A stretch of 64,000 nucleotides of DNA from Anoxynatronum buryatiense (lineage in GTDB: Bacteria > Bacillota > Clostridia > Peptostreptococcales > Tindalliaceae): positions 372,001 to 436,000 of the forward strand of contig NZ_FXUF01000001.1 in NCBI RefSeq assembly GCF_900182905.1, written 5' to 3'. Both the position numbers and the translations under genes were made by a program. Shown piece by piece: positions 5,058-28,951 of the stretch (position 1 is its first letter; each line of letters starts with the position of its first letter). The notes beneath the pieces were generated by a model. It ran no database searches and was not told the DNA's origin. It worked only from the letters and a program-made list of their open reading frames with translations.

Positions 5058-7130
5058 ATGAGTTTTGTATCTAAGGGTCTGACCGGCAAACTAATTCTTT
5101 TCTTCGGCTTGTTGATGATATTTGTCAGCGCCACTTTTGGGCTGGTCACTTATCGGGTATCCGGTAATATTGTGGAGCAGGAAATTCAGGAACGACTGGA
5201 ACATCAAATGGATGCCACCAGTCATGAAATCGAAAACTACCTTACTGCCCATAACAACGTGGTGCTCAGTTTGTCTAAAGCCGTTGAAGCCACTGGAATT
5301 ACCATGACTCCTGCCCAGTACCAGACACTCCTGTCAGGCGCTTCCATGATAAATGAAGCTGCTTTGGGTGCCGGGGTATGGTTTGAGCCCTTTCAATATG
5401 ACTCTGACATTCGTTATTTTGGCCCCTATGTCTACAAAGATGAGAATCAGTTAGTCTATACCGAAGAATATGCCACTGAGGATTATGACTATCCCAGCCA
5501 GGACTGGTATACCATGGCTAAAGGACTTCAGGATCAGGTGGTATGGACCGAACCCTATTATGATGAAGTGTTGGACTATACGTTTATAACTGCCACTGCT
5601 CCTCTTTATAATGACCGCGGCCAGTTTATGGGTGTGGTTACCGGCGACATGGGCCTCGATGTGCTTCAGGATATTGTTCGCAACTTGGAGGTTGGTCTCA
5701 TGGGCGAAGCGCATTTGCTGGACGCCAGCGGTAACTTTATTGCTTCTGCCGATCCCCATCGAGTGATGAATCAGCCACTGATTCAGGATAGTGACACAGA
5801 CTTGGCCCAGCAGAGCGACCTGATTCTCAACAATTACCAAGGGCAGTTCTCTTTTAGAAACTCCGATGGTCTTCATTATGGTTTTTTCACCGAGATCCCT
5901 CAAACAGGATGGACACTGCTCTTAACCATCCCACATAGTGAAGTGGCCATGGCCATGCAGGTGCTCCGCCGTGATATCCTGATTCTCAGCCTGATTGTTC
6001 TCCTCATTGCCATTGCTGCAACAGCATTGATTAGTCGATCCATCACCCGACCCATCATCCGACTGTCCGCTATAATCGATCGTTTCTCAAATTATCAGTT
6101 AGCGCTAAACCCAGCTGATCAGATTGAGTCAGACAGTCGTCGCAAAGATGAAATTGGCACAATTGCCCAGGCTTTGTCACGCATGCAACACAATTTTGTT
6201 GCTCTTGTGAATGATATTGCCCACCACGCCGAACAAGTGGCAGCTTCTTCTGAAGAATTGACAGCCACCACTGAGCAAACCGTCATTTCAGTAACTGAAG
6301 TTGCCAAAGCTACTGAAGAGATCGCTTCGGGGTCCAGTTCTCAGGCCAAAGATACCGAGAATGGTGTTGCACATATTCAGGAGTTGGGTCAATTGATAGA
6401 GGCAGAACAACAACACGTTTCTGATTTGCAAAGTGCCATTCAGGCAGTATCGCATTTAAAGGATGAAGGCATCACTTTACTGGCTGACTTGAACCAGAAG
6501 ACCCGGGTGGTCAAAAGTTCATCCCATGAAGTGGGAACCATGATCCACGCCACCAACTCCAGTGCTGAGAAAATCGCCGTTGCCAGTGATATGATCAAGA
6601 ATATTGCCGAACAGACCAATCTTTTAGCTCTTAACGCAGCCATTGAAGCCGCACGGGCCGGCGAAGCCGGCAGAGGGTTTGCAGTGGTGGCTGATGAAAT
6701 TCGTAAATTGGCGGAACAATCAAACCGGTTCACCGAGGAAATCGCTAAAATAATTCAGGAATTATCTGAGAAAACTGAACAGGCAGTGATCACCATGGAT
6801 GAAGTTGGCACAGCCATCACTTCTCAGGCTGAAAGCGTTTCAATGACTGACGCCAAGTTTGAAGGAATACGAGATGCCATTGTTATCAGTGAAGCTCGCA
6901 TTGCCACCATCACCAAGGGCAGTCAGGAAATGGAGGCCAAAAAAAGACAAATTATTGATATCATCCAGAGTCTCTCCTCCTCTTCTCAGCAAAATGCTGC
7001 AGTTACAGAGGAGGTTTCGGCTACCGTGGAAGAACAGGCATCCTCCATGGATGAGATTGCCAACGCCAGTGAATCGCTTGCTCAGATGGCCGAGGATATG
7101 CAGAAAGCCATTCAACGTTTTAACTGGTAA
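5058..7130 (+). CDS. methyl-accepting chemotaxis protein with dCache sensor
   Basis: Transmembrane chemoreceptor of 690 aa that signals to CheA/CheW. TM1 is about residues 11-31. An extracellular double-Cache domain spans about 35-300; the stretch [10 protein letters not shown] and the following WTEPYYDE and VVTGDMGLD are typical dCache_1 elements, which usually bind small molecules such as amino acids or carboxylates. TM2 is about 305-326, then HAMP, then a long coiled coil whose hairpin tip (about 515-555) contains [19 protein letters not shown]. There is no C-terminal CheR/CheB tether pentapeptide. AGGAAGAGG precedes the ATG. It is a single-gene unit with its own promoter and terminator; the ligand cannot be read from sequence. 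Confidence 0.93.
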
Positions 7131-7222
7131 TGGAAACAAAACAGATCAATACCCCTTTTATAACCCGTGTATTTGCATTGATCATTTACGGCCACTGAAA
7201 CAAGTATGTGGTCACATGCTGA

Positions 7223-7255
7223 CGCCACATGGAGATCAACCCCATGTGGCGTTTT
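7223..7255 (+). terminator. terminator after the chemoreceptor gene
   Basis: A perfect 10-bp stem (7223-7232 with 7242-7251) encloses 9 nt and is followed by TTTTGCTGTCGTTTTT. It separates the gene from the convergent ABC operon. Confidence 0.75.
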
Positions 7256-7265
7256 GCTGTCGTTT

Positions 7266-24980: not shown

Positions 24981-25042
24981 GCCAACACAAAGCATCTCTT
25001 TGGCGTTCCCTCCTTTCCATCTTCCGTGGAAAATCTGGAGCA

Positions 25043-25210
25043 TTTCACGGCAGGTCTCCTGACTTTGCGTCATCGATGAAATATCTCCTTCCCATTGCCT
25101 GCAGGCAACAGTGGTTTTGATATTTCTCTCAGCATTACAGTGGCGGGACCGCGTGGGATTTTCACCCACTTCCCTTTTAGCCCGTCTGGTTGTTGACGGG
25201 CACCGTGAAA
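25043..25210 (-). promoter_or_regulatory. cobalamin (B12) riboswitch
   Basis: Minus-strand leader with a perfect P1 pairing: TTTCACGG (25203-25210) with CCGTGAAA (25043-25050). It contains the conserved cobalamin elements GGGAA-GTGG-TGAAAATCC, GTCCCGCCACTGTAA and the B12-box-like GTCAGGAGACCTGCC. A terminator lies downstream, so binding adenosylcobalamin should shut off the adenosyltransferase and transporter genes. Confidence 0.96.
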
Positions 25211-25229
25211 CAATCATTTAATTAAGTCG

Positions 25230-25447: not shown

Positions 25448-26146
25448 ATGAAATCTGCTCAACGATTGGCTCAAATCGTTTATTTACTCATCTTTGTCGC
25501 CGGCCTTTTTTTTCTTGTCCTTAATCAGGGCCACCACCACACCAAGCTGCATCATTTGATGACAAAACTGCATGAATATCGGTCACAGCATTATTTGTTG
25601 GCGGCCTGTGCTTTTTTCTGCGTTCGGTTTTTATGTGCGGCCTTTGCCTTCCCAGGCAGTGGCATGTTTACCCTTATGGGGGGCGCTCTCTTTGGCTGGC
25701 TTCCCGGCACTTTTTTGGTGTTGCTGGCCAACAGCACTGGTTCTGTGGTGGTTTTTTTGTTAAGCCGGTATGCTTTTAAAGAATCCCTTGAGAAAAAATA
25801 CCAGCGGCAATATGCCTGGATCCGCAGGCTTTCTCATCACCGCGGGGCTGCCTTGCTCTTTTTTCTCCGCGTCATTGAAGTTGCCCCTTCTTTTGCAGTC
25901 AATTCTTTTTTTGCCCTAACAGAGATGCGTCTGCGCACCTATTTCACAGCAACCGTTCTGGGTGCCCTCCCAGGGATCCTGCTGTTTACAAATTTGGGCG
26001 TGCAGGCAGCTTCCATTCGCCAGTTGAATGATTTGGTCAGTCCCATGGTTCTTGCTTCCCTTATTTCTCTGGCCTTGATTCCCTTATTATCCAGCATCGC
26101 CTGGTATCTTGCCCGAAATGATTGTTCAACATCACTTAGCAAATAG
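25448..26146 (+). CDS. TVP38/TMEM64 (VTT/DedA-type) membrane protein
   Basis: A 232-aa inner-membrane protein with a SNARE-associated (VTT) domain. Family marks are FPGSGMFTLMGGALFG near residue 70, the RVIEVAPSFAVNSFFAL re-entrant-loop stretch near residue 140 and a LGALPGILLFTNLG segment. A His-rich stretch GHHHTKLHH follows TM1. Proteins of this superfamily are implicated in lipid scrambling and membrane homeostasis; some sit beside metal or selenium genes without known mechanism. It lies alone between the cobalamin operon and cbiMQO, transcribed the opposite way from both. Confidence 0.88.
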   Translation: MKSAQRLAQIVYLLIFVAGLFFLVLNQGHHHTKLHHLMTKLHEYRSQHYLLAACAFFCVRFLCAAFAFPGSGMFTLMGGALFGWLPGTFLVLLANSTGSVVVFLLSRYAFKESLEKKYQRQYAWIRRLSHHRGAALLFFLRVIEVAPSFAVNSFFALTEMRLRTYFTATVLGALPGILLFTNLGVQAASIRQLNDLVSPMVLASLISLALIPLLSSIAWYLARNDCSTSLSK

Positions 26147-26154
26147 AACCTTTT

Positions 26155-26204
26155 AAAAAAAACCTGAAAATAATGGTTTATTTAGCCAATATCTTCAGGG
26201 TTTT
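26155..26204. terminator. bidirectional terminator between TVP38-type gene and cbiO
   Basis: AACCTGAA (from 26161) pairs with TTCAGGGTT (26194-26202) around an AT-rich loop with a TGG/CCA inner pairing. Eight A precede it (a T-run for the minus strand) and TTTTCTTT follows on the plus strand. It overlaps the last codons of cbiO. Confidence 0.5.
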
Positions 26205-27036
26205 CTTTATTTTGCAACGCTTTTATCAACCATGCTTCTGCTTCAGCCATGCTCTGGGGCACCGGAACTTTCATCCCCTTCTGATGAAGACGGTGAAACA
26301 GTTCTGCCAGCACCGGCGGCTCCAGATTGGCTTCTTTCAGCATGTTTACCTGCCCAAATATTTCCCGCGGGGTACCCCGGGCAATGATGCTTCCCTGATG
26401 GAAGACATACACCACATCCGCCAGATCACCCACCACTTCCATGTCATGAGTGGTTATCACCAGTGACACTTCATGCTCCCTGCTCAGGTGATTGAGCAGT
26501 CTTATCATCTCCCGCCGGGACTCCGGGTCAAGGGAAAGAAAGGGTTCGTCTAAAATTAAAATTTGTGGCAATGTCACCAGCGCACCCGCCAGGGCTACTT
26601 TCTTTTTTTCGCCTCCGCTGAGGTAGTGGGGAATTTTTTCCAGCAGGTGGCTAATCTGCAGCGACGCTGCCACATCTTTCACTTTTTGAAGTACCTGATC
26701 TTCTGGAAGTCCATCATTGCGCAAAGAAAAAGCAATGTCGTCATACACTCGAGGTCCAATTATTTGCTCATCCACTTGCTGAAAAACGACGCCCACTTTC
26801 CCCCTTATTTTTCGAAAGGATTCATGCGGACGACATCCCAGCACTGTCACAGTTCCCTCAGTGGGGGCCAGAAGCCCCAGCAGGTGGGCCAGCAATGTGG
26901 TTTTTCCCGCACCATTGGGTCCAATAATCACCACCCGTTGCCCGGCCTCTACAGCAAAATCAAGGCCGCCAAGATGAACGGCGGTTTTATCGGGATAAAC
27001 GTGTTTTAAATTAGTTACATGAATTAAAGGTTCCAT
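26182..27036 (-). CDS. cbiO: energy-coupling factor ATPase CbiO
   Basis: ATPase of a cobalt/nickel ECF transporter, 284 aa. Walker A GPNGAGKT (about 39-46), Q-loop GVVFQQVDEQI (typical of ECF ATPases), signature YLSGGEKKKVALAGAL, Walker B ILILDEPFLSLD and TTHDMEVV. A C-terminal extension of about 60 residues follows the core. It overlaps cbiQ by 13 nt; gene order is cbiM-cbiQ-cbiO. Confidence 0.92.
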   Translation of the reverse strand: MEPLIHVTNLKHVYPDKTAVHLGGLDFAVEAGQRVVIIGPNGAGKTTLLAHLLGLLAPTEGTVTVLGCRPHESFRKIRGKVGVVFQQVDEQIIGPRVYDDIAFSLRNDGLPEDQVLQKVKDVAASLQISHLLEKIPHYLSGGEKKKVALAGALVTLPQILILDEPFLSLDPESRREMIRLLNHLSREHEVSLVITTHDMEVVGDLADVVYVFHQGSIIARGTPREIFGQVNMLKEANLEPPVLAELFHRLHQKGMKVPVPQSMAEAEAWLIKALQNKENPEDIG

Positions 27037-27737
27037 TTCATCACCGTTCCCATTAAAATGACCATTCCAGCGAGCATCAGTCCAAAATCTGCCGTTCCAC
27101 GAGGTTTCAGGGAGTGCCTCAACGGGATTCGGCCGCTGTAACCGCGAATGGCGAGAATTTGATAGATACGTTCGCTCATTTCGAAGGCCTGTATCACAAG
27201 GGTTCCCAGAGCACGTGTCAGGTTCTGCAGATTTTTAAGAGGGGTCATGGCATCATAGCCGCCCCGAAGTCGAATAATTCTAAGCAGAGCCTGCATCTTC
27301 TCCATCAAAAGAAAAAAAGCCCGGTAGGTGAAAATCATGAGGTCCACCAGTAGACCCGGCAATACCTTGGAGAGAGCGGCAAAGATGTCAACGTAAGGGG
27401 TGGTTGCAATTAATAGCAGCATGGTCAATGCCGCCCCCACTGCTTTCAGGATAATCACCAAGCCATTAACCCACGATTGCTGTGCCATCATCAATGCAAA
27501 AATAAGGCTGAAAAAAGCCGGGTAAAGGGCAAGATGCCCCACCTTTTTCAGAGGAATGCTGCCCATCACAAAAAAAAACAGAATCAATAACAGGAGCAAC
27601 AATAACTGAGAGAGTTCCCGGCTGATGATCCAGCTGCTCAGCATGAATATGGTGAAGACCAATTTAGATAAAGTTCCCCTGCGGTGAAAAAATCCTTTTC
27701 CATTCACTGACAAATGGTCCATTTCTGCTAGATGCAT
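27024..27737 (-). CDS. cbiQ: energy-coupling factor transmembrane protein CbiQ
   Basis: Coupling membrane protein, 237 aa, that links the substrate subunit to CbiO. Several helices and two basic coupling motifs typical of CbiQ/EcfT: IRLRGGYDAM near residue 155 and AIRGYSGRIP near residue 200. N-terminal MHLAEMDHLSVNGKG is also family-like. It sits 9 nt after cbiM. Confidence 0.9.
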   Translation of the reverse strand: MHLAEMDHLSVNGKGFFHRRGTLSKLVFTIFMLSSWIISRELSQLLLLLLLILFFFVMGSIPLKKVGHLALYPAFFSLIFALMMAQQSWVNGLVIILKAVGAALTMLLLIATTPYVDIFAALSKVLPGLLVDLMIFTYRAFFLLMEKMQALLRIIRLRGGYDAMTPLKNLQNLTRALGTLVIQAFEMSERIYQILAIRGYSGRIPLRHSLKPRGTADFGLMLAGMVILMGTVMKWNL

Positions 27738-27746
27738 GTTGTCACC

Positions 27747-28496
27747 CTATCGATCAATTAATTGTGGCTTCACCCGCTGAAAGTAACCAACGATCAGAGA
27801 TGTACCTGCGGCCTCCAACATCAGCCCTGCCAAAAAAATCGTTCCAACCGCTGCCCATCCCGTAAAGGTGAAATAGCGGATCCGTTCCAGCTCTTCATGA
27901 AAGGAACCATGCTGGTGAGAATGGCCATGAGGCTCGTTTTCTTGTGTTTCTGTTAATGTGACAGCAGGCAGTTCATCGTGCTCACCATGATGGTGATGGG
28001 GCAACACTTCAGAGAACCCCGCTGTTGATCCCACCAGCAAAACCATCAATACCATAGACAGAGCCACACCTGCCATCGTCGCTCCAAAAGCGCCCTTTCT
28101 GACAGAAAGATGCTGCTTCAAACCTTTAAAAACAACAGAACCCACCAGTACCTCGCTGCCAATCAGCAGGGTATTTAACCCCACAATGGTAATTCCCCCA
28201 TGCCCAAAAGAGGCCAAGATAAGATTCACCACAAAAACTGCCAGAAATCCCATTTTAGGCCCCACTAAAATTCCCGTTAATACTGCCAGGCTCAAATGCA
28301 CCGGTACCACAAATAACGGTACCGACATGCCGATGATCATAATGGCCGCCGCCATGGCGGTTGCGGGTATTCGTTGACGCGCTTCTGCTGCATCCATGCT
28401 TCGGATGATGAGGATCATTATTAACAGACTCACCACATAACCGCCCGCTCCCCAGCTTAAGGGAATAATCCCGTCAGGAACATGGATATGACTCAT
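27747..28496 (-). CDS. cbiM: cobalt/nickel ECF substrate-binding protein CbiM
   Basis: Metal-binding membrane subunit, 249 aa. ATG 28496 is chosen since GGGAGGCG lies just upstream and it places the hallmark N-terminus MSHIHVPDGIIP at the start; in this family N-terminal His side chains bind Co2+ or Ni2+. About six to seven helices. A hydrophilic loop near residues 165-205 is His-rich (HHHHGEH and HGHSHQHG), possibly a metal-collecting segment. No separate cbiN is present; the extra C-terminal helix after the loop may replace it. Cobalt is favoured by the neighbouring B12 operon but nickel is not excluded. Confidence 0.9.
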   Translation of the reverse strand: MSHIHVPDGIIPLSWGAGGYVVSLLIMILIIRSMDAAEARQRIPATAMAAAIMIIGMSVPLFVVPVHLSLAVLTGILVGPKMGFLAVFVVNLILASFGHGGITIVGLNTLLIGSEVLVGSVVFKGLKQHLSVRKGAFGATMAGVALSMVLMVLLVGSTAGFSEVLPHHHHGEHDELPAVTLTETQENEPHGHSHQHGSFHEELERIRYFTFTGWAAVGTIFLAGLMLEAAGTSLIVGYFQRVKPQLIDR

Positions 28497-28543: not shown

Positions 28544-28620
28544 TGCAAATGAATTGCACTTGAGCCTTATTGTACCGTTTCTTTCCTGTCAGGTCAAGGC
28601 TTGATTGCAATTCATTTGCA
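28544..28620 (-). promoter_or_regulatory. cbiMQO promoter flanked by two inverted 15-bp palindromic sites
   Basis: Minus-strand promoter: -35 TTGACC (28592-28597), 17-nt spacer, -10 TACAAT (28569-28574). TGCAAATGAATTGCA at 28544-28558 falls at about +4 to +18. Its exact reverse complement, TGCAATTCATTTGCA, is at 28606-28620, just upstream of the -35. Each site is itself a TGCAA-N5-TTGCA palindrome, and similarity between the two inverted copies continues inward over about ten more bases. The layout fits a repressor binding both sides of RNA polymerase; no metal riboswitch is present. Confidence 0.7.
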
Positions 28621-28701: not shown

Positions 28702-28878
28702 CTATGTCCTGCCACATTGACAACTGCTTCCATGACACTGACAATCCCCTTCACAGCCTCCACAGGTATGTGGAATGTCAATACGCACTGTTTTTGATTT
28801 AACTTTTAGATATGTTATGGCGAATACCATCAACAATATGATCAAAGCCAGTATTTTAAATGTCGCCATCCAGTCCAT
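28702..28878 (-). CDS. small Cys-rich membrane protein, FeoB-associated type
   Basis: A 58-aa protein: one membrane helix (about residues 5-25), a basic stretch, then a cysteine cluster with CGGCEGDCQC and CQC near the C-terminus. The size and layout match the family named FeoB-associated Cys-rich membrane proteins, though no feoB is in the window. ATG 28878 is chosen for the GGAGGGGAGG upstream. A strong promoter and a Fur-like box precede it, supporting an iron-related role. Confidence 0.65.
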   Translation of the reverse strand: MDWMATFKILALIILLMVFAITYLKVKSKTVRIDIPHTCGGCEGDCQCHGSSCQCGRT

Positions 28879-28901: not shown

Positions 28902-28951
28902 TGATATTGATTATCATTTTAAAATGTACCATGTTCTCTCGCTTATGTCAA
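28902..28951 (-). promoter_or_regulatory. promoter with Fur-like 7-1-7 box
   Basis: Minus strand: -35 TTGACA (28946-28951), 17-nt spacer, -10 TACATT (28923-28928). Directly downstream, at 28902-28916, TGATATTGATTATCA matches the Bacillus-type Fur consensus TGATAATnATTATCA at 13 of 14 specified positions. The box covers the expected start site, so an iron-loaded repressor would block transcription. Confidence 0.75.

Follow-up and report, generated by a model that had tools for sequence, protein, structure and literature searches.

What controls the cbiMQO operon of Anoxynatronum buryatiense, and which metal does its transporter carry? The operon encodes an ECF transporter annotated for cobalt, and its promoter lies between two copies of a short palindrome. 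The locus was analysed within the window, by which we mean the whole 64-kb stretch of DNA. The features that concern us are the following:

25032-25222, minus strand: cobalamin riboswitch, the nearest to cbiMQO, ahead of the genes for a PduO-like adenosyltransferase and an ABC system of the peptide/nickel type
25448-26146, plus strand: VTT/TVP38-family membrane protein (PF09335), convergent with cbiO
26182-27036, minus strand: cbiO, ATPase of the ECF transporter (ECF ATPase models)
27024-27737, minus strand: cbiQ, T component (PF02361)
27747-28496, minus strand: cbiM, S component (PF01891), with a His-rich loop
28544-28558: predicted downstream Zur-type operator, TGCAAATGAATTGCA (plus strand sequence), at about +4 to +18 relative to the predicted start
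28574-28569, minus strand: -10 element TACAAT, 17-nt spacer from the -35
28597-28592, minus strand: -35 element TTGACC
28606-28620: predicted upstream Zur-type operator, TGCAATTCATTTGCA (plus strand sequence), 8 bp upstream of the -35, matching the class-wide znu operator
28702-28878, minus strand: small Cys-rich membrane protein, FeoB-associated-like by eye, without a Pfam match, flanked by two regulated promoters

Two Operators at One Promoter

A sequence-only reading of the locus had placed a 15-mer and its exact inverse on either side of the cbiMQO promoter. The sequence confirms this arrangement: 28606-28620 is the exact reverse complement of 28544-28558, and the pair brackets the promoter. 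Each box is itself an imperfect Fur-family 7-1-7 palindrome, TGCAAAT-G-AATTGCA, with one mismatch between its arms, so that calling the boxes inverted copies says little beyond the presence of two operators. Aligned in one direction, their sequences differ at two central positions only. Their centres are 62 bp apart, which corresponds to about 5.9 helical turns. The similarity that had been said to continue inward for about ten bases is real, and it is weak (7 of the next 10 bases are identical, mainly AGCCTT); it could be chance or the remnant of a duplication. The two boxes are the only exact matches to TGCAA-N5-TTGCA in the window, and dinucleotide shuffles give an expectation of 0.35 per 64 kb. 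The pair is almost certainly functional.

The upstream box adjoins the -35 element and the downstream box covers the start region, as expected of operators that overlap or adjoin a promoter. The leader from the predicted start to the cbiM ATG is about 66 nt long, and its RNA is unremarkable. The start codon of cbiM is most likely the ATG at 28496, which follows a GGGAGG ribosome site and gives a protein beginning MSHIHVPDG. No cobalamin riboswitch was found on the window cbiMQO operon, in agreement with the sequence-only reading; the nearest one belongs to the next operon.

The Box as the znu Operator of Clostridia

The box has been scanned for at three scales: the genome, its relatives and the class. 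The exact pattern TGCAA-N5-TTGCA, whose search before metal genes had been proposed along with the original observation, occurs nine times in the 4.16-Mb genome. Besides the two matches at the window cbiMQO promoter, one lies upstream of znuA in a znuACB operon (L010/L052), two identical ones are part of a sequence repeated at the ends of contigs C10 and C16, one is found ahead of an ABC uptake operon (L013/L054), and three fall inside genes. The C16 copy precedes a His-rich permease and then a DUF1980 protein (L012/L053). The znuA of this genome is closest to the zinc binding proteins AztC and AdcA and has a His-rich loop, and all eight znuA orthologues found carry the exact box.

Across the class, exact TGCAAATNATTTGCA is present in 54 of 391 genomes, and a reversed control pattern in two. 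Thirty of these exact-box loci were examined: 24 are at znuA or znuC and three at cbiM of the window clade, with one more at a COG0523-like GTPase and two without an assigned target. The consensus is TGCAAAT-N-ATTTGCA, and base counts from 28 boxes bear out the 7-1-7 form. The 7-1-7 form and the position before zinc uptake genes, both in the genome itself and in relatives, are those of a Zur operator. The nickel uptake or SOD targets that would mark a Nur operator are not what the box precedes; its targets are mostly znu genes. The assignment of the window box as the Zur-type znu operator of Clostridia, with respect to both operator and regulator class, is thus well supported by sequence comparison.

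Operators of this kind are known. In Clostridium thermocellum, the DAP-seq motif of Fur_1691, a predicted Zur, is TGCAAATcATTTGCA, with two sites before a zinc ABC operon, and the motif is conserved in other species (PMC8457756). The window box shares this 15-bp motif and its occurrence as two sites. The targets differ: Fur_1691 has a zinc ABC transporter as its target, its Zur role is predicted, and cbiMQO is not among the targets reported in the text consulted (PMC8457756). The Zur_D box predicted before znuABC-zur in Desulfovibrio, ATGCAACnnnGTTGCAT, has the same TGCAA-N5-TTGCA half-sites and spacing; its central bases differ (C...G), the organism belongs to another phylum, and the site is a prediction only (PMC545781). 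Half-sites and spacing are also alike in the Nur box of Streptomyces coelicolor, tTGCaa-N5-ttGCAA, and both are of the Fur-family metal-uptake type, but Nur senses nickel, acts at sodF and nikABCDE (PMC3919588), and has no link to znu genes. Promoters with two Zur boxes are known from yciC of B. subtilis and znuA of S. coelicolor (PMC6103462). Those boxes differ in sequence from the window box and overlap the -35 and -10, whereas the window boxes lie immediately ahead of the -35 and across the start site.

Conservation of the Box before cbiM

Orthologues of the window cbiM were gathered within the order, from named contigs and class-wide, and the box was counted within one mismatch. The sequence-only reading had staked its proposal on the site recurring in orthologous cbiM promoters, and it does recur: the box precedes window-clade cbiM in 10 of 15 genomes of the same order and in 16 of 19 genomes of other orders. 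Adding three more contigs brings the count within the order to 10 of 18 promoters; among shuffled promoters 1.6% have the box. In relatives the box lies at the -10 or just after it. No such box was found upstream of distant canonical CbiM genes. In six of the 16 genomes from other orders a Fur-family gene stands between the box and cbiM (L192, L195, L196, L197, L204 and L208). These six loci were found from the CbiM protein and are therefore not biased towards the box; their gene order ties together the box, the type of regulator and the transporter.

Conservation has limits. Five genomes of the order retain a window-clade cbiM without the box, so zinc control is not universal. Two of the five, G008 and G097, which lack the candidate regulator discussed below, have an iron-Fur-like box about 50-57 nt upstream of the orthologous cbiM (L066, L065), where the regulator appears to have been exchanged for another Fur-family protein. 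The inverted two-box layout is also not kept. Most relatives have a single box. In G085 there are two, pointing the same way and separated by 38 bp, and at two znu loci the paired boxes are spaced by 72 and 68 bp.

Fur2, a Candidate Regulator

The genome has four Fur-family genes, and NikR was not found in it. One of the four, Fur2 (PF01475; G000:C3:344869-345315), adjoins ruvC and selB. Within the order, box and Fur2 are both present in nine genomes and both absent in five (Fisher p=0.0005, a statistic that ignores phylogeny); G058 was excluded from this test, since its genome is 63% complete and has the box, and no Fur2 was detected in it. The iron Fur clade is present in all these genomes, and the box tracks Fur2 instead. 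In a tree built without the long branches of PerR and Fur4, the orthologues of Fur2 group in a supported clade distinct from iron Fur (support 97/93 vs 100/99).

Fur2 has a conserved HHHH motif, CxxC pairs and a Cys-Pro motif. The Cys-Pro motif and an HxxEIYG-like stretch are common to Fur2, to znu-adjacent Fur genes (L157, L158, L177) and to the Fur genes of the box-fur-cbiM operons. B. subtilis Zur presumably carries a similar motif. Fur2 scored above no curated NCBIfam cut-off, and comparison with solved structures did not discriminate between Zur, Fur and Nur for this protein. Autoregulation of Fur2 was considered and set aside, as none of 14 Fur2 loci has an exact box nearby, though a Fur-type gene is under the box in six other genomes. 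We infer that Fur2 is the Zur acting at the window boxes. The earlier proposal of a metal-type repressor with two sites is supported, and the repressor can now be assigned to a kind: the box matches the znu operator and the Fur_1691-type motif, and Fur2 is a candidate for the protein.

The Transporter and Its Substrate

The window operon encodes homologues of CbiM, CbiQ and CbiO in the same order as in the CbiMQO/NikM ECF transporters of known structure (PDB 5x3x, 4m58), as expected of a cobalt transporter. In other respects it departs from those systems. Its CbiM has a His-rich loop, a feature of the window CbiM clade, and there is no N component, cbiN being absent from the operon. A Zur-type box replaces the riboswitch found on cobalt operons. 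The window CbiM matches PF01891, yet it falls far under every NCBIfam CbiM cut-off.

The most uniform difference is at the N-terminus. The first two residues of NikM and CbiM participate in substrate binding (PMC6828968). Eleven canonical CbiM sequences begin MHxxDG or MHxxEG, and the 21 distinct clade members first collected all begin MSHxHxPDG or a close variant. Three extra residues thus precede the canonical His, and in alignments with NikM2 and CbiM chains of known structure, Met1-His2 fall opposite residues four and five of clade members, so that the N-terminal Met-His characteristic of cobalt CbiMNQO is displaced. A canonical CbiM is also encoded in this genome, with a cobalamin riboswitch ahead of it (L156). 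Transporters of the window clade most likely take up zinc, or a metal on which the cell draws during zinc shortage, instead of serving B12 synthesis. There is about an even chance that this cobalt-annotated, Clostridia-wide clade constitutes an ECF family that imports zinc and is controlled by Zur, with a zur gene of its own in the operon in some genomes, and that the three-residue extension displacing the Met1-His2 site has altered its choice of metal.

A Model for cbiMQO Control and Its Alternatives

In the model that we favour, zinc-loaded Fur2 dimers would bind both boxes and exclude RNA polymerase from the cbiMQO promoter. The downstream dimer would cover the start site and the upstream dimer would add strength. 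Upon zinc starvation the repressor would lose its metal and leave, and cbiMQO would be made together with znuACB. On the sequence evidence, we consider it probable that zinc-loaded Zur (Fur2) represses cbiMQO at the two operators, that zinc starvation induces the operon, and that the clade imports zinc or a substitute metal.

The same operator and a Fur-family protein could also serve a Nur-like system in which nickel or cobalt is the corepressor and cbiMQO imports nickel or cobalt as annotated. The identity of half-sites and spacing with the Streptomyces Nur box (PMC3919588) and the CbiM annotation favour such a system, and so does a counterpoint to the zinc reading, the one genomic box that precedes a transporter operon also carrying a cobalamin riboswitch, which would fit a link to cobalt. 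We regard nickel or cobalt as unlikely, given that znuA and znuC genes dominate the boxes of the class, that znuA here is nearest to zinc binding proteins, that a canonical CbiM with its riboswitch is already present in the genome, and that the metal site of CbiM/NikM is displaced in the window clade. An iron or manganese sensor, either Fur or another Fur paralogue, is more doubtful still. It would be in keeping with the iron-Fur-like box at cbiM in G008 and G097, and with the FeoB-associated-like small gene just upstream in the window, which is preceded by a Fur-like box, TGATATTGATTATCA, at 28902-28916. That box, however, differs from TGCAAAT-N-ATTTGCA, so that two types of Fur-family box stand side by side, about 300 bp apart, and the Zur-type box follows Fur2 in its distribution, not the iron Fur, which is common to all the genomes compared.

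A role for the inverted pair as such, whether through cruciform or hairpin formation or through an obligatory DNA loop, is very improbable. A single strand of the region folds far better than shuffles (z -7.3), but this follows trivially from two inverted palindromes; the spacing does bring the two boxes to roughly one side of the helix. As the varied layout among relatives shows, the two boxes are not conserved in this paired form, which makes a hairpin or cruciform an unlikely mechanism, and a transcript from the predicted start would lack the upstream arm. The shared cruciform or hairpin that had been suggested for the locus is not supported. A DNA loop between the two boxes is possible. 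That the pair is chance or a neutral repeat is scarcely credible. Chance does produce short repeats, and a local duplication could lie behind the inward similarity, but two exact boxes sit at one promoter where a fraction of one is expected in the whole window, and conservation of the box extends to other orders, with a link to zinc genes. Repression of cbiMQO by a zinc-loaded Zur is the reading that we retain.

Related Loci

In the window, the operon after cbiMQO is the riboswitch-led one with the PduO-like and ABC genes. Relatives of the VTT/TVP38-type gene adjoin cbiO in G130 (L149) and G008 (L154); another, in G004 (L056:4746-5447), comes immediately after a Zur-type box.

The znuACB operon is followed by a FeoB-like GTPase transporter and a DUF2325 protein (L052:194-2026, L052:2472-2843). 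A DUF2325 gene follows znuACB in the window genome and G003, and follows cbiMQO in G107 and G047 (L055, L150, L151); the GTPase and DUF2325 may thus both be zinc-starvation genes. G055 has a TroA-type binding protein and its ABC genes downstream of cbiMQO. Such neighbours in common favour the zinc reading of cbiMQO.

The ABC uptake operon with a genomic box is FecB/BtuF-like (L054:6815-6829 and 7072-7262; G000:C22) and has a cobalamin riboswitch with a terminator-like hairpin. After the riboswitch there is an apparent second promoter, TTTACA-16-TAAAAT, whose start is covered by a Zur-type box. This promoter is possibly a zinc-starvation bypass of B12 control. The ends of C10 (L011) and C16 (L012) share about 110 bp with an identical Zur-type box and promoter and diverge outside it; the stretch is a repeated promoter that broke the assembly.

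Significance

The kind of box is known, and what is new is its target, a widespread clade of cobalt-annotated ECF transporters under Zur-type control. No report of a Zur-controlled CbiMQO or of a zinc ECF transporter was found in the literature searched, and the novelty of the target is provisional. If the clade belongs to the zinc-starvation response, many Clostridia would own an ECF-type zinc importer. The uniform change at the N-terminus would allow the determinants of metal choice in the CbiM/NikM fold to be tested directly. The box provides a practical means to map zinc regulons across Clostridia.
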